Below are positions 18,916 through 31,829 of a stretch of DNA of 39,756 nt, piece by piece. The DNA comes from Hamadaea sp. Lineage in GTDB: Bacteria > Actinomycetota > Actinomycetes > Mycobacteriales > Micromonosporaceae. The translations under genes were made by a program, and so were the position numbers. Under the pieces are notes generated by a model. The model was not told the origin of the DNA. It did no database searches and saw only the letters and a list, made by a program, of their open reading frames with translations. Each line of letters opens with the position of its first letter. The stretch's first letter is position 1. Location of the stretch: the NCBI RefSeq assembly GCF_013362815.1, contig NZ_JABFVK010000108.1, positions 1-39,756 on the forward strand. The letters run 5' to 3'.

Positions 18916-21900
18916 TCAGTTGATCGTGAGGGTGAACGTGGTCGTCGTGTTCTTGATGTTCTGGTAGTTGTTGCTGAACGTCAGGTTCGTGAAGGTGGCC
19001 GAACCGACCGCCGGACCCTGACCGGACTCCGGCATCTCGTTCACCCAGATCCCGAAGCCCGACTTCGCGTCGTACGCGTCTCCGCTGCGCTGCGCGCCGC
19101 TGATGGAGACGTTGGTGAAGGTCGTGTCCGTGATCGGCTGAGCCTCCGGGTACTTCGACTGGAACATGATCCCCGAGTAGGTCGGATCCACGATGTCGAC
19201 GTCGCTGAACCGGATGCCGCGGAACTCCTTCGACGCCGCGAAGCACCAGATCGCCCCGAACGTCTGTGCGCCCCAGAAGTGCCCGCCCGCGCGTACCAGA
19301 CTGATGCTCTGGAACTGAGTGGGCGGCGACGAGCCGAACCCGACGAACGGGTAGCCGAAGTCGAGCGAGCTGACCGTGATGCCGGAGTAGGTCAGCATGT
19401 CGGCGATGTAGAGGTTGCGGAAGATGTTGTCGTAGCCGCCGTAGACGGCCAGACCCGCCGCCCGCCAGGTCAGCGTCGCCGAGAGGTTCTCGAAGACGTT
19501 GCCGTGGTTGCCGACGCTGCCGCCGCCGTCGATCGCGGAGAAGAGCGCGAACGCGTCGTCCCCGTTGGACCGGCCCTCACTGTTGCTCACCGAGAGTCCG
19601 GTGCTGTCGCTGGTGAAGTTGACGCCGTCGGCGAAGGTGTCGCGGATGCGCGCGTTCTTGATGGTGACATGGTCGTTGTGGACGCCCCAGTACATGCAGA
19701 CGGTGTGCTCCACCCAGACGTCGTCGATGGTCAGGTTCGAGACGTCCTTGAGCTCGCCCCAGACCTTGCCCGGACCGTCGATCCGTGACGTGTAGTTCCC
19801 GAAGAACGCCAGGTGCTTGAAGGACGAGCCGTTGGCCGTGCTCTGCACCGCGAAGCCGGCGTCGGTGTTCTCCTGCCCTTGCGGTGTCTGGAACCGCGTG
19901 TACCAGACGCCCGCGCCCACGACCTGGACGGCCTTGCCGTAGATCTGGAACTTCTGCGCGGTGTCGTAGGTGCCGGCCGGCAGATAGACGCCGACGAGAG
20001 TGCCGGTGGTGTCCATGCGTACGCGGTCCAAGGCGCTCTGCACGTCTTGGTGGGTGAAGCCGTTCGGGACGGCGTACTTGGCCGGGTCGGGGTTCGCCAA
20101 TGCGCTGACCTGCTCGAGGTTCACGAAGTCGATCGTGTAGGTCAGCGGGTTGCCTGAGTCCTTCTGAAGCCGGATCGTGTGCCCGGCCGCCACCGTCGTG
20201 TCCAACATGATGTTGGCCTCGTCATAGATGTGGCGCGGGCTGCCCGAGCCCGGCGAGTTGCCCGGTCCGGCCTCGGCCCCGTACAACCAGGCGTAACGCG
20301 AGGTCAGCGGGATCGACTTGTGGAACACCCCGTCGACGTAGATGCTCAGCGACGACGTCTGCCCGCCGCCACCCGAGGAGTCCGGCATCGAGAACCGGGT
20401 CACCAGGGTGTTCGTCGGGTTCTTGGTGGTCCACTGCACGTAGGATCCGGTGCTCCCGAGGGTCACGGCCTTGCGGCCGGACGCCTCACCGGCGAGGTCG
20501 CCGATGGTCCGGTTCGGGCCGATGACCGTCGCGCCACCGCCGGTCGTCCCGTCCTCGGCCTCGTACATGTCGTAGGGCAGGTTCGCGCCCCGGCCGACGA
20601 AGAACGACGTCGTGCTGGTGTTGTTGCCCTGCTTGACGGCCAGCTCGTTGGCGTCCACCGCGATCGTGGTGGTCACGGTGTACTTGCCGTTCACCGCCGT
20701 CCAAGTTCCTAGGTTCACCGGACTGGTGGTGGCCCCGGCCGCGATCGTGCCCGAGTACGCCCCGGTCTTGGTCGTGATCGTCGCGCCGCTCGCGTCCTTG
20801 ACGGTCAGCGTGATGCCGTGCGACCCGCTCGCCGAGGCGACGCTGCCCTGGTTCTTGATCGACACCGAGAAGGTCACGGTGTTGCCGGCCGACGGGTTGC
20901 CCGGCGACCAGGAGACCGCTCCCGGCAACAGGTCCGACGTCGCGACCGGGGCGACGACGAGGTTGGTCGACGACGAGAACGAGTTGTTCGCGTCATTCAG
21001 CTCGACGACCGTGTTGGCCTCGTCCACCTTGGCGGAGACGGCGTACGTGCCGGCGTCCTTGGCCCCGATGTTCGCGGTCACGGTGGCCGTCCCGTTGACC
21101 GCCAGCGCGCCGACGGTCGCCGTGCCGACCTTCGTGGTGCCGAGGTAGAAGTTCACGTTCGACGCCGGGGAGGCCGCCGTCCCGATGTTCTTCACCGTCG
21201 CCGACAAGGTGACCGCGTCGGTCTCGATCGGCGACGCCGGAGTCCAGGAGACCCCGGTGACCGTGAGGTCCGGGTTCGGCGCCGGAGTGCCGATGACCTG
21301 GAACTCGGCCACCTGTCCGTTCGGCGCGCCGGTGTTGGCCGTGAACTTGAGCTGTACGTCGGCGACGGTCGCGGAGACCGGGATCGTCACCGTGTTCGCA
21401 CCGGACGACGGGTTGAACGTGTACGCCGCCGACGCCTTGATCGTGCTGAACCCGCTCGCATTCTGCTCGCGGCCGAGCACCTCGAACGTCTGCGTACGCG
21501 TGGACCAGGCCGAATCGGGGTTCAGCTTCACGACGATCGAGCTGACCGAGGCGTTCGCGCCGAGCTGGACGGTCAGCGTGCTCGGGTACGCCCCACCGGC
21601 GCCCTCCCAGTACGTGGTGACGTCGTTGTCGTTCGCGTTGGCGGCGACGAACGTGAACACCGTGCTGGAGGCGCTGATCGGCTTGCCCGCCGCCAGGTTG
21701 GACCCGGAGCCGGTGCCGGTGCGGGTCACCGAGTTGCTCTCCGGCGACTGGTTGCCCGCCGCGTCCTTGGCCTTGACGAAGTAGGTCACGGTCGCCGTGT
21801 CCGGCTGATTGTCGGTGTAGGTCAGCGTGGTGCCGCCGACACTCGTCGCCAGCGAACCGTTCCGGTAGACGTCGTACCCGGTCACCCCGACGTTGTCGGT

Positions 21901-23199
21901 CGACGCCGACCAGGTCAGCTTGATCTGGCCGGAGGCCGGCTGGGTGTACGCGAGATTCGTCGGCGCGCTCGGCGGCGTCGTGTCCCCGCTCTGCCCCGTA
22001 CGCGTAACCGTGTTGCTGTTGCCGGACTGGTTCCCGGCGGCGTCCCGGGCCCGGACGAAGTAGCTGACGGTGGCGCCGGCCGGCTGGGTGTCCGTGTAGG
22101 TGAGCGTGGTCCCACTGACGCTCGTCAGCAGTGTGCCGTTCAAGAACACGTCGTACGCCGTGACTCCGACGTTGTCCGTCGACGCCGACCAGGTCAGCTT
22201 GATCTGCCCGGTGGCCGGTTCGGTGTACGCCAAGTTCGACGGAGCGGTCGGCGCTTGGGTGTCCCCGGTGGACGGACCGTAGACCTCGAACTCCGCGATC
22301 TGCGCTGCCGGCCACACGTTGTTCGCCGTGACCACGAGACGCAGGTAGCGGGCGGTCGTGGCGTTGAAGTTGATCGTCACCGTGTTGCCGCTCGGGGTGA
22401 AGGCGTACGCCATCGCCGCGACGAGGCTGCTCAGGCTGCCGGAAACGGTCCCCGACTGCACCTCGATCGTCTGCGTACGCGCCTCCCAGGCGGAGGGCAG
22501 CTTCAGGACGACCTTGTTGACGCTGACGGCCGAACCGAGGTCCACCTGCAGCCACTGCGGGAAGGCGCTGTTCGCGCTCTCCCAGTACGTCGACTGGTTC
22601 CCGTCGTTGGCGTTGCCGGCGGCGTACGTCTGATTGTGGCTGCTCTCCGTCATCGTCTTGCCCGCCGCCAGGTTCGACGAGCTGGACGCGACGCCGTAGA
22701 CCTCCAGCTCGGACAGCTGACCGGCGGACCAGCCGGAGTTCGCGGTGATGTTCACCCGGACGTAGCGGGTGGACGTCGCCCCGAAGTTGATCGTCACCGT
22801 GTTGCCCGACGCCGGGTCGAACGCGTACCCGGCGGAGGCGACGATCGTGCTGAACGACGAACCGTCGGTGCTCCCCTGCACCGAAAGCGTCTGCGTACGC
22901 GCTCCCCACCCCGTCGGAAGCTTCAGCTTGATCTGGTCGACGCTGGTCGCGGTGCCGAGGTCGATCTGGCCCCACTGCGGGAAGGCGTTGTTCGCGCTCT
23001 CCCAATAGGTCGCCTGGTTGCCGTCGTTCAGATTGGCCGCCACATAGGTCTGATTGGTGCTGCTCGCCGAGGCGGACTTGCCCAACGACAGGTTGGGACC
23101 GCCCGCGGCCGCGGCCGGGGTGACCGGCCCGGCCCAGGACAACGCGACGGCCACCGCCGTCAGCGCCGCCAGGCGGGCTCTCAGGGAACTCTTCCTCAC
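18916..23199 (-). CDS. secreted multidomain alpha-1,3-glucanase (GH87-like)
   Basis: 1427 residues, extracellular. The GTG start has GGAGAGG 7 nt upstream and opens a signal peptide (RKSSLRARLAALTAVAVALSW, cleavage near TPAAAA). Approximate order: discoidin/F5-8C domains at 35-168 and 170-312, FnIII at 315-405 and 406-496, a third discoidin domain at 496-637, CARDB domains at 638-751 and 752-870, a CBM35-like beta-sandwich at 873-1027 (YEAEDGTTGGGATV), and a right-handed beta-helix at 1035-1427. Asp1191 in DGVNFTSD and Asp1214-Asp1215 in NGDDAFALF are spaced much as the catalytic aspartates reported for Paenibacillus Agl-FH1 (recalled). It should cut alpha-1,3-glucan of fungal walls or mutan. 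Divergent from the CBM35/PQQ protein. Confidence 0.87.
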   Translation of the reverse strand: MRKSSLRARLAALTAVAVALSWAGPVTPAAAAGGPNLSLGKSASASSTNQTYVAANLNDGNQATYWESANNAFPQWGQIDLGTATSVDQIKLKLPTGWGARTQTLSVQGSTDGSSFSTIVASAGYAFDPASGNTVTINFGATSTRYVRVNITANSGWSAGQLSELEVYGVASSSSNLAAGKTMTESSHNQTYAAGNANDGNQSTYWESANSAFPQWLQVDLGSAVSVNKVVLKLPSAWEARTQTIEVQSGTVSGSLSSLVAAMAYAFTPSGNTVTINFNATTARYLRLVVTANNVWPAAQIAEFEVYGPSTGDTQAPTAPSNLAYTEPATGQIKLTWSASTDNVGVTAYDVFLNGTLLTSVSGTTLTYTDTQPAGATVSYFVRARDAAGNQSGNSNTVTRTGQSGDTTPPSAPTNLAYTQPASGQIKLTWSASTDNVGVTGYDVYRNGSLATSVGGTTLTYTDNQPDTATVTYFVKAKDAAGNQSPESNSVTRTGTGSGSNLAAGKPISASSTVFTFVAANANDNDVTTYWEGAGGAYPSTLTVQLGANASVSSIVVKLNPDSAWSTRTQTFEVLGREQNASGFSTIKASAAYTFNPSSGANTVTIPVSATVADVQLKFTANTGAPNGQVAEFQVIGTPAPNPDLTVTGVSWTPASPIETDAVTLSATVKNIGTAASPASNVNFYLGTTKVGTATVGALAVNGTATVTANIGAKDAGTYAVSAKVDEANTVVELNDANNSFSSSTNLVVAPVATSDLLPGAVSWSPGNPSAGNTVTFSVSIKNQGSVASASGSHGITLTVKDASGATITTKTGAYSGTIAAGATTSPVNLGTWTAVNGKYTVTTTIAVDANELAVKQGNNTSTTSFFVGRGANLPYDMYEAEDGTTGGGATVIGPNRTIGDLAGEASGRKAVTLGSTGSYVQWTTKNPTNTLVTRFSMPDSSGGGGQTSSLSIYVDGVFHKSIPLTSRYAWLYGAEAGPGNSPGSGSPRHIYDEANIMLDTTVAAGHTIRLQKDSGNPLTYTIDFVNLEQVSALANPDPAKYAVPNGFTHQDVQSALDRVRMDTTGTLVGVYLPAGTYDTAQKFQIYGKAVQVVGAGVWYTRFQTPQGQENTDAGFAVQSTANGSSFKHLAFFGNYTSRIDGPGKVWGELKDVSNLTIDDVWVEHTVCMYWGVHNDHVTIKNARIRDTFADGVNFTSDSTGLSVSNSEGRSNGDDAFALFSAIDGGGSVGNHGNVFENLSATLTWRAAGLAVYGGYDNIFRNLYIADMLTYSGITVSSLDFGYPFVGFGSSPPTQFQSISLVRAGGHFWGAQTFGAIWCFAASKEFRGIRFSDVDIVDPTYSGIMFQSKYPEAQPITDTTFTNVSISGAQRSGDAYDAKSGFGIWVNEMPESGQGPAVGSATFTNLTFSNNYQNIKNTTTTFTLTIN

Positions 23200-23453
23200 T
23201 GGGGAACCTCTCCGTGATGGGGGTGGGAGCGCAGCAGTGTTCCACACGGGACGCTGCTGAAGTTGCGGAGATGAGCGAGAAATTGAACCGACCAATGCAA
23301 GAATCTTGCACTGGTTGAGTCCAAACGTTACAGACGTGCTACCGGCGCGTCAACGGTTCCGCCGCGACCTATTGACATGCCTCGTATCCATGCGTTCTGA
23401 TCCAGGAGTCAAAAAGTTAGTAAGTTTGCCTATCTAATGAAGGGAGTGGAGGC
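23200..23453. promoter_or_regulatory. 254-bp divergent promoter region of the glucanase and PQQ-type protein genes
   Basis: No gene. It contains the palindrome at 23292-23314, a TTGACA -35-like hexamer at 23372-23377 (plus), and an imperfect inverted repeat TTAG-N13-CTAA at 23417-23437 directly before the plus-strand ribosome site. Both flanking genes are exported proteins with carbohydrate-binding domains. Confidence 0.6.
23292..23314. promoter_or_regulatory. LacI-type operator candidate, TGCAAG-AAT-CTTGCA
   Basis: The perfect core is 23296-23310; with flanks CCA and TGG the palindrome is 23 bp with one mismatched pair. CTTGCA half sites resemble those bound by MalR-type LacI-family regulators of maltose and glucan genes in Streptomyces (recalled). 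It lies about 95 bp before the glucanase start. Confidence 0.65.
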
Positions 23454-26375
23454 ATGCGCGGAAGAGCGCGGCGCGTGTGCAGCACCCTGGCCGCCGGACT
23501 ACTCGGTGCCACCGCACTGGTGACGATGGTCCCGGCGGGAACGGCTTCGGCCGCCCCGACCCGCTTCGAGGCGGAGGACGCCCCCGCCGTCTGCGACGGC
23601 ACGATCGACTCGAACTGGACCGGCTTCTCCGGGACCGGGTTCTGCAACACCACCAACGCCGTCGGCGGCTCGGTGACCTGGACGGTGACCTCCCCGAACG
23701 CGGGCACCGCCACCCTGGCCATCCGGTACGCCAACGGCACCACCACGGACCGGCCGGCGAACGTCCTCGTCAACGGGACGGCGGCCGGGTCCACCGTGTC
23801 CTTCGCGGGCACCGGCGCCTGGACCACCTGGGTCACCAAGACCGTCAGCGTGCCCGTCGTCGCCGGGTCCAACACGATCAAGCTGGCGGCCACCACCGCC
23901 AACGGCGACGCCAACATCGATTACCTGGAGTTCGACCCACCGCCGAGCTTCACCGACTACCAGGCCGAAGACGCCGCCATCGTGCAGGGCGTCGTAGAGG
24001 CCAACCACACCGGCTACACCGGCACCGGCTTCGTCAACGGCGACAACGTCGTCGGCTCGTCTGTGGAGTGGACGGTCGGCGTACCGTCGGCCGGGATCTA
24101 TCCGGTGACGTTGCGGTACTCCAACGGGACCACCATCGACCGCCCGATGGACGTCAGCGTCAACGGCACCGTCGCCGCCCCCGGCATCAGCTTCCCGAGC
24201 ACGACGAACTGGGACACCTGGGCCGATCGCACGATCAGCCTCAGCCTGGCCGCCGGCACCAACAAGATCAAGGCGATCTCGACGACCGTCAACGGCGGGC
24301 CCAACCTCGACCGCCTCCGGGTGACCGCACCCGCCGACACGCAGCCGCCAACCGCGCCGGCGAACCTGCGTGTCGTCGGCGAAGTACGCCCGTACGGAGT
24401 GGATCTGGCCTGGGACGCGTCGACCGACAACGTCGGCGTCGCGCAGTACAAGATCTACAACGGCGGCAACGTCGTCCAGGTGGTCGGCGGCAACATCACG
24501 ACCGCCACGCTCACCCTGACCCCCAACACGACCTACGTCATCACGGTGCTCGCCTACGACGCGGTCGGCAACGCCTCCCAGGCGAGCAACAACGTGCCGA
24601 TCACCACGCCGCCCAGCGACGACACCACTCCCCCGAGCCAGCCCAGCGGTGTGCGTACCACTAATGTCGCCGCGACCAGCGTGAGCCTGGCCTGGACCGC
24701 GTCGACCGACAACATCGGCGTCGCTGGTTATCACGTCTTCAAAGACGGCGTGCAGTTCGCGACGGTGCCGGACCTGACAGCGACCGCCGATTCGCTGACC
24801 CCGAGCACGACGTACGTGTTCTCGGTCGAGGCCTTCGACGCGAACGGCAACGTGTCGACGCGGAGCGCGGGGCTGTCGGTCACGACCACCGCGGGCGGCA
24901 CCGGAGGCACGGGCGGTGACCCGGTCTTCGACCGCAACGTGAACACGGCGATGGACCTGCCGTGGGGCATCGGATTCCTGCCCGACGGCAACGCGCTGGT
25001 CGCCGAGCGCGACCGGTTCGAGATCGTGCTGGTGACGCCGGCCGGACAGCGGACGGTCGTCGGCAAGATCACCGAAGCGGTCACGACGACCGGTGAAGGC
25101 GGCCTGCTCGGGCTGGCCATCTCCCCCACCTTCGCCACCGACCACTACGTCTACGTCATGCACACCGCGTCGTCGGACAACCGGGTCGTGCGGTTCAAGT
25201 ACGAGAACGGTGCGATCGGCGCCCGGGAACCGCTGGTGACCGGCATCGCGAAGAACCGCTTCCACAACGGCGGCCGGATCAAGTTCGGGCCGGACGGCTA
25301 CCTCTACATCACCACCGGCGACGCCCAGGACGGCACCAAAGCGCAGAACCTCAGCTCGCTCAACGGCAAGATCCTGCGCGTCACCACGACCGGCGCGGCC
25401 GCACCGGGCAACCCGTTCGGCACCCGCGTCTACAGCTACGGCCACCGCAACCCGCAGGGCCTGGCCTGGGACTCGGCCGGGCGGCTCTGGGAATCGGAGT
25501 TCGGCGACAGCACGTGGGACGAGCTGAACCTGATCCAGGCGGGCGGCAACTACGGCTGGCCCACCTGCGAAGGCACGTGCAGCACCAGCGGCATGATCAA
25601 TCCCGTACGCACCTGGGACGTCGCCTCGGCGTCGCCCAGTGGCATCGAGATCGTCAACGACTGGATCTACATGGCGGCCGTCCGAGGTGGACGACTGTGG
25701 GTCATGCACATCACCGGGTCCACGACGGACACGCCGCGGGCGTTCTTCAACGGCACCTGGGGCCGGCTGCGTACCGTCGTCAAGACACCCGATGGCGGGC
25801 TGTGGCTGACGTCCACGAACAACGACAAGGACGGCGGTACGCCGAGCACGCTCGACAACGTCATCGTGCGCCTGAAATTCGCGACACCGCCGTTCACCTT
25901 GACGAGCACAGCGTTCGCGAACAACGGCGGGATACCGACGAAGTACACGTGCCAGCAGGACGGGGTCTCCGGCAACGACATCTCACCACCGATGTCGTGG
26001 GGACCGGGGACGAACGTCCCCAAGAGCTACGCGATCATCCTGGTCGACACGGCCAACAGCAACAAGCACTGGGTGATCTGGGACATCCCGGCAACGCGTA
26101 CCTTCCTGCCCGAAGGGCTCGGCTTGGGCTTCAACGTCCCGGGGATCTCGGGCGCCAAGCAGAAGGGCATGAGCACCGGCGACAAGGCGCTGCAATACTT
26201 CGGGCCTTGTCCCGGCGGGACCAGCCACACCTATGAGTTCCGGCTCTACGCCCTCAACGTGACAACCCTCCCCGGGGTGGACTCGTCCTCCTCGGTCGCC
26301 ACGGTCGAGACGGCGATCCTCGCCAACGACCTGGCCACGACCAAGCTCGCCGGGACGTCGGCAGCGCACACCTGA
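23454..26375 (+). CDS. secreted CBM35-FnIII-PQQ sugar dehydrogenase-PEBP fusion
   Basis: 973 residues. Signal peptide 1-33 (cleavage at TASA-AP); two CBM35-like domains at about 36-162 and 166-290 (FEAEDAPAV, YQAEDAAIV); two FnIII domains at about 293-384 and 386-478; a Gly linker GGTGGTGG; a PQQ-type glucose/sorbosone dehydrogenase propeller at about 487-809 with NTAMDLPWGIGFLPDG, EGGLLGLAISP, HNGGRIKFGPDGYLYITTGD (catalytic His), GHRNPQGLAWD (Arg-Asn) and DELNLIQAGGNYGWP; and a YbhB/YbcL-type PEBP domain at about 810-970 (DISPPMSWGPG, HWVIWDIPATR, GPCPGGTSHTYEFRLYAL). GGGAGTGGAGG precedes the ATG. Probably oxidises sugars or oligosaccharides outside the cell; PQQ supply and electron acceptor are not in the window. 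Confidence 0.88.
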   Translation: MRGRARRVCSTLAAGLLGATALVTMVPAGTASAAPTRFEAEDAPAVCDGTIDSNWTGFSGTGFCNTTNAVGGSVTWTVTSPNAGTATLAIRYANGTTTDRPANVLVNGTAAGSTVSFAGTGAWTTWVTKTVSVPVVAGSNTIKLAATTANGDANIDYLEFDPPPSFTDYQAEDAAIVQGVVEANHTGYTGTGFVNGDNVVGSSVEWTVGVPSAGIYPVTLRYSNGTTIDRPMDVSVNGTVAAPGISFPSTTNWDTWADRTISLSLAAGTNKIKAISTTVNGGPNLDRLRVTAPADTQPPTAPANLRVVGEVRPYGVDLAWDASTDNVGVAQYKIYNGGNVVQVVGGNITTATLTLTPNTTYVITVLAYDAVGNASQASNNVPITTPPSDDTTPPSQPSGVRTTNVAATSVSLAWTASTDNIGVAGYHVFKDGVQFATVPDLTATADSLTPSTTYVFSVEAFDANGNVSTRSAGLSVTTTAGGTGGTGGDPVFDRNVNTAMDLPWGIGFLPDGNALVAERDRFEIVLVTPAGQRTVVGKITEAVTTTGEGGLLGLAISPTFATDHYVYVMHTASSDNRVVRFKYENGAIGAREPLVTGIAKNRFHNGGRIKFGPDGYLYITTGDAQDGTKAQNLSSLNGKILRVTTTGAAAPGNPFGTRVYSYGHRNPQGLAWDSAGRLWESEFGDSTWDELNLIQAGGNYGWPTCEGTCSTSGMINPVRTWDVASASPSGIEIVNDWIYMAAVRGGRLWVMHITGSTTDTPRAFFNGTWGRLRTVVKTPDGGLWLTSTNNDKDGGTPSTLDNVIVRLKFATPPFTLTSTAFANNGGIPTKYTCQQDGVSGNDISPPMSWGPGTNVPKSYAIILVDTANSNKHWVIWDIPATRTFLPEGLGLGFNVPGISGAKQKGMSTGDKALQYFGPCPGGTSHTYEFRLYALNVTTLPGVDSSSSVATVETAILANDLATTKLAGTSAAHT

Positions 26376-28406: not shown

Positions 28407-28868
28407 CTAAAGCGCAGCGAGCGCCTTGAGCCACTCCTCAGGGTCGCGAGGCGTACCGGGTTCGTTGACGGCGGCGTACCGGATGATGCCGTCGATGTCG
28501 ACCACGAAGGTGCCGCGGTCGGCGTACCCCTTGGCGGAGTTGAACACCCCGTACGCCTGGGCCACCGCACCGTGTGGCCAGAAGTCGGCCAGCAGCGGGA
28601 ATTCGTAGCCTTGCTCGGTGGCCCAGACTTTGTGGGCGTACGCCGAGTCGACGCTCACCGTCAGCACCTCGGCGAGTTCGGTGAAGTCGTCGAGGCGATC
28701 CCGGAGCGCGCCGAGTTCGCCTTGGCAGTGGCCGCTGAAGGCGAGCGGGTAGAAGACCAGCAGAACGGTGCGGTGCCCACGGAACGTGGACAACTGCACT
28801 TCCTCGTTATTCTGGTCTTTCAGGATGAAATCGGGCGCTACCGAGCCCACGTCCAGCGGACCCGCCAT
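28407..28868 (-). CDS. ahpE: AhpE-type one-cysteine peroxiredoxin
   Basis: 153 residues. Reduces peroxides, with the peroxidatic Cys48 in FYPLAFSGHCQGEL, the AhpE version of the PxxxT/SxxC motif. No other cysteine is present, so recycling needs an external thiol (mycoredoxin/mycothiol in known actinobacterial cases). N-terminal VGSVAPDFILKDQNNEEVQLSTFRGHRTVLLVFYPLAF is family-typical. GAGGAG precedes the ATG. It lies 39 bp after the DUF3052 gene on the same strand, an order I recall from Mycobacterium tuberculosis (Rv2239c-Rv2238c). Confidence 0.93.
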   Translation of the reverse strand: MAGPLDVGSVAPDFILKDQNNEEVQLSTFRGHRTVLLVFYPLAFSGHCQGELGALRDRLDDFTELAEVLTVSVDSAYAHKVWATEQGYEFPLLADFWPHGAVAQAYGVFNSAKGYADRGTFVVDIDGIIRYAAVNEPGTPRDPEEWLKALAAL

Positions 28869-28907
28869 GGCAACTCCTCACAAGGCAGGGAAACCCACAC
28901 GGAAGAC

Positions 28908-29345
28908 CTAACGCTTCGAGCGCGCCGCCTTCGGCGCGACGAGACGGGCCGCGCCCCAGTCCTTGCCGGCGCTCAGCGTCGTGGTCTGGGCGAGTCCGGC
29001 GGTCGGCGCGGACTCACTGATGTCACTGGGTTCGACGTGACCGTCTCGGCCGGCCTTCGGGGTCAGCAACCAGACCACCCCGTTGTCGGCCAGCGGAGTC
29101 AGGGCGTCGACCAGCAGGTCGACCAGATCCCCGTCGCCGTCGCGGTACCACAGCAGCACCGCGTCGACCACCTCGTCGGTGTCCTCGTCGACCAGCTCCC
29201 CGCAGCGGTCAATCAGCGCGTCACGGAGATCGTGGTCGACGTCTTCGTCGTAACCCATCTCCATGACCACCATGTCCGGCTCCACACCGAACCGGTCCGC
29301 CAGGCTGCGTACGCCATCAGCGGCCTGACCAGCGGTCGCGCTCAC
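28908..29345 (-). CDS. DUF3052 protein
   Basis: 145 residues. The GTG at 29343-29345 was chosen because GGGAGG lies 9 nt upstream; the longer in-frame ATG has none. The sequence GQAADGVRSLADRFGVEPDMVVMEMGYDEDVD and LVDEDTDEVVDAVLLWYRDGDGDLVDLLVDALTPLADNGVVWLLTPKAGRDGHVEPSDI is highly acidic and matches DUF3052 of actinobacteria. The C-terminus is basic (AARLVAPKAARSKR). Function unknown; it is conserved next to ahpE, which suggests a link to redox or 2-oxoacid dehydrogenase physiology. Confidence 0.9.
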   Translation of the reverse strand: MSATAGQAADGVRSLADRFGVEPDMVVMEMGYDEDVDHDLRDALIDRCGELVDEDTDEVVDAVLLWYRDGDGDLVDLLVDALTPLADNGVVWLLTPKAGRDGHVEPSDISESAPTAGLAQTTTLSAGKDWGAARLVAPKAARSKR

Positions 29346-29475
29346 GTTAGAGTGCCTCCCTTTCGACTTCGCCTGTCCATTCTGACGGGCCGACCGGCAA
29401 TGCACCGGTCAACGGGTAGTTCACACAGTTCTAGCTCCTTGCGCAAGTGGCGCACCGATCGGGGCGGGGACAAAC

Positions 29476-31797
29476 TCACACGGCGAGCAGGCTACGCGCG
29501 GCTGACATGATCATGTCTTCGTTCACCAGGACGGTCTTCGCGGCCGGTCCGAGCGGGATGTAGGTGTCGGCGGCGGCCACCCGGCGTACTGCGCCGACGT
29601 ATCCGGCGTCGACCAGGGCAGCGAGGACGCCCTCCGCCACGCCCCCCGAACGACGGGTCTCGTCGACGATCAGGACTCGGCCGGTCGCCGCCGCTTCGCG
29701 TACCACATCTGCTTCGGGAAGAGGCGACAACCAGCGCAGGTCGACCACCCGCGTGCCCACCCCCTGGGCCGCGAGCTGGGCCGCGACCCGCAGCGACATG
29801 CGCAGGCCGTTGCCGAACGTGATGATCGTGAGCGCGTCGGCGTCGCCGACCCCGTAGGTCCGGGCGCGGCCGATCGGAACGTGCGTCGCGCCCCAGCGGT
29901 TGGGCGGCGGGTAGTCGGCGAGCCACTGACCGTCACCGGACTCGTAGAGATCGCGCGTGTGATAGAGCGCGATGGGCTCGACGAAGGCGCTGACCGTGCC
30001 GTCCGCCTGCGCAGCAGCGAGGCAGGTACGCAGCATCGCGGCGGCGTCGTCGGCGCGAGCCGGGCAGGCCACGACCAGGCCCGGGATGTCGCGCAGGACA
30101 GCCAGTGAGTTGTCGTTGTGGAAGTGCCCGCCGAACCCCTCCTGGTACGCGAGCCCGGCGATGCGGACGACCATCGGATTGCGATAGCGACCGGTCGAGA
30201 AGAACGACATGCTCGCTGCCTCGCCGCGCAGCTGGTCCTCCGCGTTGTGCAGGTACGCCAGGTACTGGATCTCGGGAACGGGCAGCAGGCCGCCGAGCCC
30301 CGCGCCGTTGGCGAGCCCGAGGATGGTGGTCTCGTCGAGGAGCGTGTCGAAAACCCGACTCGGGCCGAACTTCTCGCGCAGGCCCTTGGTGACCCCGTAG
30401 ACGCCGCCCTTGGCCGCCACGTCCTCGCCGAACAGGACGACCGAGGGGTTGGTGACCAGGGCGTCCGCGAGCGTCGCATTGATGGCCTGGGCCAGCGTCA
30501 CCGGGCCGTTCGGTCCGGGCCCGCGTTTGACCGACAGCGGCCCCGCCGCGCGCTCGCCGGACTCGGACACCACCCGCGCCACTCGCAACGGCCGGCGCGG
30601 AGCCAGCGGCGCGCTCACCTCGGCCGCCGTCCCCAGCTTCGGCTCGACCATGACCTCCTCGGCCGTTTTGCGTACCTGCCAGCCGATCTCGTCGTAGCGG
30701 GCCAGCAGCTCCTCCGGGGTGGCCAGGCCCGAGGCCACCAATCGGGCCGCGGTCAGCAGCAACGGATCGCGGTCGGCGTCCGCCTCGATCTCGCGCGCCG
30801 TCCGATAGCCGAGCTCCGCGTCCGCGCCCGCGTGGCCCATGAGGCGTACCGTGCGCAGGTGGAGCAACGCCGGTCGCCGGTGGCGGCGTACCCAGTCGGC
30901 CGCCTCGCGCGCCGCAGCGTAGGCCTCGGCCAGGTCGGTGCCGTCGGCTTGGGAGTACCGCAGGCCCGGCTTCGACCGCAGGCTCGCCTCGACCCAGCCC
31001 AGCGGCGACTTCACGCTGATCCCGATCCCGTTGTCCTCGCAGACGAACAGCACCGGCAGCTTCAGGCCACTGTGGTCACACCAGCCGGCCGCGTTGAACG
31101 CGGTCTGCGCCGACGCGTGGTTCACCGACGCGTCGCCGAACGAACACACCACCACCGCGTCGGTCGGCCAGGCGCCGAGACTGCCCGCCACGTGCGGTTC
31201 CAGCTCCGATGATCCGACTGGTACGCGAGCCGCAGCGGTCTTCTTCCGCTGAGTGGCCGACGCAGCGCGGGCGCGCTCGATCGCGTACCCGATGCCGACC
31301 GCTCTCGGCAGATGCGACGCGATCGTGGAAGTTGTCGGGACGACGTTGAGCCCGCGGTTGCCGAACACCTTGTGCCGCCCGCCCGCGATGGGTTCGGCCG
31401 AAGAGGCGACGATCCCCCGCAGAACGTCCCGGACTGGGTCGACGCCGGAATCCTCCGGCTGCCCCGCGCGTACGCAGTAGAACGCGCCGGACCGGTAGTG
31501 CAGCAGCGCCGGGTCGCTGTAGCGCAGCGCCTCGGCGACCGCGGCGTTGCCCTCGTGGCCGGACGATCCGATCGTGTAGTACCCCTCGCCGAATCCCCGC
31601 AGCCAGCGGGCGGCCAGATCCAGGTGCCGGCTGGTCATCTGCGCGTCGAACAGCCGCAGCGCCCGATCCGGCGCCAGGTCGCCCCAGCCGGCCGTGGGCT
31701 CCGCCGGAACGGGCAGGGTCGCGACCGTCTTCCGGAACCGCTCGTCGAGATCTTGAGGAGTCGTCACGTTCGCCAGCATCGCGCACCGATGCGACAT
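29476..31797 (-). CDS. fused E1 alpha-beta 2-oxoacid dehydrogenase (branched-chain type)
   Basis: About 773 residues, TPP-dependent E1. The alpha half (about 30-375) contains GEGYYTIGSSGHEGNAAVAEAL and the TPP motif SFGDASVNHASAQTAFNAAGW...VCEDNGIGIS. The beta half (about 425-773) contains VLFGEDVAAKGGVYGVTKGLREKFG, DTLLDETTILGLANGAGLGGLLPVPEIQY and a transketolase C-terminal domain with VVDLRWLSPLPEADVV and VLIVDETRRSGGVAEGVLAAL. It decarboxylates a 2-oxoacid and acylates an E2 lipoyl domain; no E2 or E3 is nearby. Two or three starts are possible; ATG 31797 (weak GGTGA upstream) leaves room for the divergent promoter. Confidence 0.9.
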   Translation of the reverse strand: MSHRCAMLANVTTPQDLDERFRKTVATLPVPAEPTAGWGDLAPDRALRLFDAQMTSRHLDLAARWLRGFGEGYYTIGSSGHEGNAAVAEALRYSDPALLHYRSGAFYCVRAGQPEDSGVDPVRDVLRGIVASSAEPIAGGRHKVFGNRGLNVVPTTSTIASHLPRAVGIGYAIERARAASATQRKKTAAARVPVGSSELEPHVAGSLGAWPTDAVVVCSFGDASVNHASAQTAFNAAGWCDHSGLKLPVLFVCEDNGIGISVKSPLGWVEASLRSKPGLRYSQADGTDLAEAYAAAREAADWVRRHRRPALLHLRTVRLMGHAGADAELGYRTAREIEADADRDPLLLTAARLVASGLATPEELLARYDEIGWQVRKTAEEVMVEPKLGTAAEVSAPLAPRRPLRVARVVSESGERAAGPLSVKRGPGPNGPVTLAQAINATLADALVTNPSVVLFGEDVAAKGGVYGVTKGLREKFGPSRVFDTLLDETTILGLANGAGLGGLLPVPEIQYLAYLHNAEDQLRGEAASMSFFSTGRYRNPMVVRIAGLAYQEGFGGHFHNDNSLAVLRDIPGLVVACPARADDAAAMLRTCLAAAQADGTVSAFVEPIALYHTRDLYESGDGQWLADYPPPNRWGATHVPIGRARTYGVGDADALTIITFGNGLRMSLRVAAQLAAQGVGTRVVDLRWLSPLPEADVVREAAATGRVLIVDETRRSGGVAEGVLAALVDAGYVGAVRRVAAADTYIPLGPAAKTVLVNEDMIMSAARSLLAV

Positions 31798-31823
31798 CAG
31801 CCAGTCACCGACCGGTCCGGGCA

Positions 31824-31829
31824 TAGGAT
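31824..31829 (+). promoter_or_regulatory. leaderless -10 hexamer TAGGAT
   Basis: Ends 6 nt before the GTG at 31836, supporting that start over the ATG 9 nt downstream. Confidence 0.5.

Follow-up and report, generated by a model that had tools for sequence, protein, structure and literature searches.

The chitosanase regulon governed by CsnR in Streptomyces is among the described systems closest to the locus analyzed here. According to the accessible portion of PMC6097792, the Streptomyces genes are ordered csnREFGHK, and CsnR binds palindromes upstream of csnA and csnR, with (GlcN)2 weakening this binding. The same portion places CsnR boxes at GH46, GH2, GH5 and GH75 chitosanase genes and names positions 5 and 9 of the box as the most important. 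Operators of this kind sit between the promoter and the ribosome-binding site, as stated in the accessible portion of PMC5635096. The two enzymes that meet at our locus resemble GH87 α-1,3-glucanases and PQQ aldose sugar dehydrogenases, respectively, and it is the dehydrogenase gene that carries a CsnR-type box.

The window, i.e. the entire 39,756-nucleotide stretch of Hamadaea DNA that was analyzed, contains two divergent genes at 18916-23199 (reverse strand) and 23454-26375 (forward strand), separated by a 254-bp intergenic region (23200..23453). A first-pass annotation made from the sequence had placed and named both genes correctly. The reverse-strand gene, with its stop codon at 18916 and a likely GTG start at 23199, encodes a GH87 α-1,3-glucanase of 1427 residues whose N-terminus, judged by eye, resembles a signal peptide. 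Both members of the GH87 catalytic pair are present at 18967..20583 on the reverse strand (PF22815 and PF22816; CatAgl_D1 5e-77, CatAgl_D2 9e-109), accompanied by three F5/8 type C and two CARDB accessory domains. The best match among PDB sequences is 6k0m (2e-123, over residues 1-542 of 559), which we take to be the GH87 α-1,3-glucanase AglFH1. The catalytic aspartates, including the GDD motif, are aligned with 6k0m, a TFADG motif is common to both proteins, and the PDB variant 6k0s carries Ala at the second Asp of GDD. Carbohydrate-binding domains had been announced for both proteins, which holds for the CBM35 modules of the dehydrogenase; the glucanase instead has its F5/8 domains, presumably CBM32-like, and no CBM family match in Pfam. 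An FN3-like stretch in the glucanase likewise has no Pfam fn3 match.

The forward-strand gene begins with ATG at 23454 and encodes a 973-residue protein with a signal-peptide-like start. Its domain order in Pfam is two CBM35/CBM6 domains, two FN3 domains, a GSDH propeller (PF07995; 24954..25826; 1e-67; 229 bits against a cut-off of 25) and a PEBP domain (PF01161; 25932..26357; 1e-20). The GSDH-PEBP fusion is also found in genomes G061, G062 and G017. Fifteen PDB sequences match the propeller at E ≤ 0.001, with 3das at the top (7e-86), and we take 3das, 3a9g and 2ism to be PQQ aldose sugar dehydrogenases. None of the 15 is a fungal AA12 enzyme by name, so that the propeller's earlier description as AA12-like is unsupported by sequence and AA12 membership was rejected at that level. 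Read by hand, the alignment with 1c9u shows H144, R228, N229, R406 and R408 to be identical in the window protein, while K377 is replaced by Arg, likewise in 3das. These residues are presumably the PQQ contacts of soluble glucose dehydrogenase, five of the six thus being identical. The closest paralogue in the same genome, 57% identical, is a second CBM35-GSDH gene in a CBM35-rich stretch of contig C77 (C77:40001-80000, L100-L101); it has no box of the kind described below within the 40 kb examined. Eleven homologous loci outside the genus (L074-L084) encode GSDH homologues that are 83-85% identical, with no PEBP match following. At L075, L078, L082 and L084, a stop codon closes the reading frame behind the GSDH domain, with CBM35- and F5/8-like matches lying beyond it. 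A C-terminal module swap in these Catellatospora-type homologues was considered and rejected, the stop codon being present in all four loci tested.

The divergent pair is found in three of the four genomes of the genus. G061 has the whole arrangement including its flanks, and in G080 one short contig carries the GSDH gene together with the beginning of the GH87 gene, the remainder of which is on another contig. In the fourth genome, G039, no GSDH gene lies at the corresponding place. Its GH87 gene (68% in the catalytic domain) is flanked by a Sua5 gene and by one whose GH18 match is below the cut-off, and it keeps the wider surroundings of the window, with the tRNA-editing-domain gene on one side, at about 4 kb, and the aceE-like block on the other, at about 10 kb. 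Outside the genus, no GH87 catalytic domain was found in any of 17 GSDH neighborhoods of about 20 kb each, G062 and G017 included. Viewed from the GH87 side, GSDH genes are near none of 56 loci of the family and near 2 of 80 named GH87 loci, 60 of which span at least 20 kb. Six loci are common to both sets, which leaves 130 distinct loci without the pair genomes, two of them with a GSDH gene within about 10 kb. The family loci come from a set of 105 genomes of the family that match GH87; in 59 of these (the 56 plus G000, G061 and G080), the neighborhood of the best copy was examined. In both hits the best match is a different GSDH paralogue, at distances of about 4 and 9 kb, and the genes are not divergent neighbors. 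By our own rough estimate, chance alone would yield about two such hits, given several GSDH genes per genome as counted from the best ten candidates of each genome among the matches listed. With counts of 0/17 and 2/130, the latter close to the chance rate, homologues of the two genes are rarely neighbors, and the arrangement seems to be peculiar to one genus among the genomes examined. Next to the pair, the window has a peroxiredoxin, DUF3052 and aceE-like block (28407-31824), kept in all eight family genomes examined, with a tRNA-Val beside it.

The first-pass annotation had proposed a coupled system and a search of genomes for the same divergent arrangement as its check. GH87 would free α-1,3-gluco-oligosaccharides, the dehydrogenase would oxidize them and the electrons would feed other redox enzymes. 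Both proteins do look secreted, their genes adjoin and the 254-bp region is conserved in three of four genus genomes, all of which would suit such coupling. It was nevertheless rejected on the counts of 0/17 and 2/130, because homologues that are rarely neighbors are what the annotation itself had named as a refutation; moreover, the GH87 gene of G039 has matching surroundings but no GSDH beside it, and each gene has a palindrome of its own. We consider coupling very unlikely.

Comparison of three genomes revealed two palindromes within the conserved gap. The promoter region had been described as shared: the gap is indeed common to the pair, but each palindrome accompanies its own gene elsewhere. 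The palindrome TGCAAGAATCTTGCA at 23296..23310, located about 97 nt ahead of the GH87 start, is the probable operator of the GH87 gene, and its regulator might be of the LacI type. At up to three mismatches, it is found in 21 of 132 GH87 upstream regions and in none of 396 shuffles, where the 132 include the window and G061 and count two duplicate records twice (L190/L159 and L193/L148). It also stands ahead of the GH87 gene of G039, at a distance of about 90 nt, whereas GSDH genes have it in only 3 of 22 cases, all of them where the gap is common to both genes. With just 21 of 132 regions carrying it, most GH87 genes use something else. In the window's genome, TGCAAGAATCTTGCA occurs a single time at up to one mismatch. 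It is not found within three mismatches at the other GH87-like genes of this genome (L258, L259 and L260), and an operator common to these and the window gene was therefore rejected. One of these stretches (C54:10001-28000, L258) holds two GH87-like matches beside LacI-, sugar ABC transporter- and GH13-like frames and may represent an α-glucan utilization cluster. On the dehydrogenase side, a promoter-like element (TTGACA, 17 nt, TTCTGAT; 23372..23401, forward strand) was read by eye; a consensus promoter scan of the region found none.

The second palindrome, GTTAGTAAGTTTGCCTATC at 23416..23434, follows this promoter-like element and ends 19 nt before the ATG of the dehydrogenase gene. A pattern for it, GTWAGTNAGNNTNACTAAC, was written after seeing 8 of 22 GSDH upstream regions, these being the usable part of 29 loci of which 7 were too short. 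At up to three mismatches, the pattern is found in 20 of the 22 and, among those unseen when it was written, in 12 of 14; none of 66 shuffles came below five mismatches. Before GH87 genes just two entries match at the same threshold, both with the shared gap. The two GSDH regions without the box are L085 and L102, the latter inside a boxed operon, and the box of L070 is weak (13.1 bits, under the shuffle maximum). A matrix built from eight boxes of ROK genes gave a similar picture against shuffles of single bases: 19 of the 22 GSDH regions beat all 220 shuffles and 20 exceed the 99% level, many of these loci being close relatives. Among 130 GH87 upstream regions without the pair genomes, none beat all shuffles and one exceeds the 99% level. 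The matrix test is partly circular, because the ROK boxes came from the pattern drawn from GSDH upstream regions. Given that the palindromes differ, each accompanying its own gene elsewhere, and that the dehydrogenase box is common to chitosan-type genes, the GH87 and GSDH genes likely answer to different cues.

Five places in the window's genome match the box at up to two mismatches, each 19-44 nt before a gene, compared with one row for a reversed-pattern control. The genes behind them encode the dehydrogenase, a GH2 exo-β-D-glucosaminidase with CBM35, a CBM35x2-FN3-GH8 protein, a protein with two CBM35 domains and a GH18 match just under the cut-off, and a ROK protein. The ROK gene lies elsewhere in the genome, outside the window, and heads a run of ROK, SBP, permease, a gap, GH4 and BadF/BadG kinase-like genes; a second permease was not seen in this cluster, the gap being at its expected place. 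The dehydrogenase gene and a csnR-like gene thus have the box in common, and the latter leads an ABC-GH4-kinase cluster with a box of its own.

Across 12 relatives, 55 distinct box places were found, of which 39 were examined, made up of 10 in front of GSDH genes, 27 retrieved separately and 2 in other loci (left out were G017 C1:1035880, C40:321567 and C43:4794; G135 C9; G094 C6 and C83; G061 3182502 and 6231576; G039 C11; G062 4256419; and six of G080). Part of the box places in relatives must be chance matches, because the reversed control gives 22 rows against 77 for the box pattern. Counted in genomes, the box stands before a ROK gene in seven, a GH46 chitosanase gene in three, and GH75, GH2 glucosaminidase and GH8 genes in two each. 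It also precedes genes for GH20, GH5, GH9-deacetylase, GH88 and CBM35-only proteins, a phosphoesterase gene and a MerR gene. In G062, a boxed GH46 chitosanase gene and the GSDH-PEBP gene converge at a distance of about 1.6 kb, separated by a transporter-like frame. G061 has a box upstream of a ricin-CBM35 gene (L291). This gene company is the main evidence for a link to chitosan.

The letters of the box have less to say. In the accessible portion of PMC4856308, an S. lividans site is given that agrees with the window box in 14 of 19 bases, a level reached by 8 of 20000 shuffled versions of the site. Counted by hand, 9 of the 12 fixed bases of the Streptomyces consensus AGGAAANTTTCCT, as it appears in the accessible text, are kept, positions 5 and 9 included; the box of the window genome's own ROK gene has four mismatches to it. 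Within four mismatches, AGGAAANTTTCCT is found in 18 of 22 GSDH upstream regions against 37% of 440 shuffles, and in 57 of 130 GH87 upstream regions against 37% of 2600 shuffles; at three mismatches, the GSDH count is 3 of 22 against 5% of shuffles. The consensus alone thus gives a mild excess over shuffles and fails to single out GSDH upstream regions. The CsnR link is thus carried more by the ROK-led cluster and by the genes behind the box than by its letters. The placement of the box between the promoter-like element read by eye and the gene does match the operator placement in the accessible portion of PMC5635096.

A different ROK or MarR-type regulator could own the box, in which case the regulon would be a broad fungal- or plant-wall regulon merely including chitosan genes. 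Such a regulator would sit well with the poor yield of the consensus and with boxed genes that are not chitosan enzymes by name, such as the phosphoesterase, MerR, GH9-deacetylase and GH88 genes, the last two being boxed, along with GH20, in G017 and G039. Against it, the boxed ROK gene heads the csnREFGHK layout given in the accessible portion of PMC6097792, and GH46, GH75 and GH2 glucosaminidase genes recur behind the box. We regard another regulator as rather unlikely. Membership of the dehydrogenase in a CsnR-type chitosan regulon is the most likely assignment, because its box is common to the csnREFGHK-like cluster and to chitosan-degrading genes.

A PQQ-type enzyme needs its cofactor, and PqqE (TIGR02109) was found above the cut-off in 5 of 61 genomes searched, the window's own included in the search, and in none of the four genus genomes, even the single-contig G061. 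PQQ would therefore have to come from outside. PQQ uptake is possible in bacteria. In two relatives, G017 and G019, the box lies 27-29 nt before a PQQ biosynthesis operon that comprises a pqqA-like gene, pqqC, a pqqE-bearing frame and pqqB (G017: 7867-15307 of L102, C43:55001-75000; G019: 9332-12258 of L315). The pqqA-like frames of 35-36 residues have no NCBIfam match and are presumably of the ExxxY type. In both operons pqqC is just under the cut-off; the pqqE frame of G017 also matches pqqD above the cut-off, and in G019 no pqqD match was seen among the 25 best listed. The G017 operon continues into a CBM35-FN3 gene and closes with a CBM35x2-FN3-GSDH gene. Behind the G019 operon lies a frame that partially matches a CBM, and no GSDH gene turned up in the 20 kb examined. 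Neither a box at up to three mismatches nor a GSDH gene was seen in the remaining three pqq loci (L316-L318).

The want of PqqE in all four genus genomes could also mean that the propeller protein is inactive as a dehydrogenase and has a wall-binding or scaffold role in an organism unable to make PQQ. This is distinctly unlikely in our judgment, given the conserved residues we take to be PQQ contacts in the 1c9u alignment, the possibility of uptake and the related CBM35-GSDH gene that closes the boxed PQQ operon of G017.

Taken together, we favor, with moderate confidence, a separately switched pair in which the dehydrogenase belongs to a CsnR-type chitosan regulon and oxidizes wall sugars with PQQ from outside. 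Two independently controlled genes for attack on fungal walls, a plausible setting for both, would have come to adjoin back to back in one Micromonosporaceae genus. The GH87 enzyme would hydrolyze α-1,3-glucan under its own operator at 23296-23310. The ROK repressor from the distant csnREFGHK-like cluster would sit on the 23416-23434 box, which lies between the promoter and the ribosome-binding site, and would release it when chitosan oligomers arrive. The dehydrogenase, a predicted secreted and wall-binding PQQ-type aldose dehydrogenase, would then take up PQQ from the surroundings and oxidize C1 of wall sugars. We infer its substrate from the regulon alone, with glucosamine or chito-oligomers the likeliest, and it more likely serves chitosan breakdown than that of α-1,3-glucan.

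More tentatively, and with somewhat less than even confidence, we hypothesize chitosan-induced extracellular oxidation in Micromonosporaceae at large: the chitosanase repressor would control PQQ dehydrogenases that bind the wall, together with the pqq operon in some genera, glucosamine or chito-oligomers would be oxidized outside the cell beside the chitosanases, and members without pqq genes would use the PQQ of their neighbors. The significance of the locus lies in this regulatory link, namely the box that chitosan genes have in common with the genes of CBM35-bearing PQQ-type dehydrogenases and, in G017 and G019, with a PQQ operon. If true, this link would assign both a function and an inducer to a set of actinobacterial proteins labeled "putative PQQ sugar dehydrogenases", and the bacterial breakdown of fungal walls would gain an oxidative step. 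In the open-licence literature, we found no paper linking GH87 with PQQ, none on a ROK operator with CBM35 in Streptomyces, none on a PQQ-dependent sugar dehydrogenase with a glycoside hydrolase in Micromonospora and, judged by title and abstract opening, nothing on a link between PQQ and chitosanase.

Set against known systems, the window glucanase is like the GH87 AglFH1 type (6k0m) in its catalytic domain and its GDD and TFADG motifs, but has F5/8 type C and CARDB domains ahead of the catalytic domain. The dehydrogenase shares the propeller with PQQ aldose sugar dehydrogenases (PF07995; 3das, 3a9g, 2ism and the soluble glucose dehydrogenase 1c9u) and keeps the presumed PQQ-contact residues in the 1c9u alignment, whereas it adds CBM35, FN3 and PEBP domains and belongs to a genus without PqqE above the cut-off. 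With the CsnR regulon of S. lividans, as far as the accessible portions of PMC6097792, PMC3048496 and PMC4856308 describe it, the putative regulon has in common a palindromic box between promoter and gene, a self-boxed ROK gene heading an ABC-GH4-kinase cluster, and boxes at chitosanase and GH2 genes. The box itself has diverged here, with its 14 of 19 bases and weak consensus match, and the regulon would extend to a PQQ-type dehydrogenase and, in G017 and G019, to a PQQ operon, neither of which is mentioned for Streptomyces in those portions.
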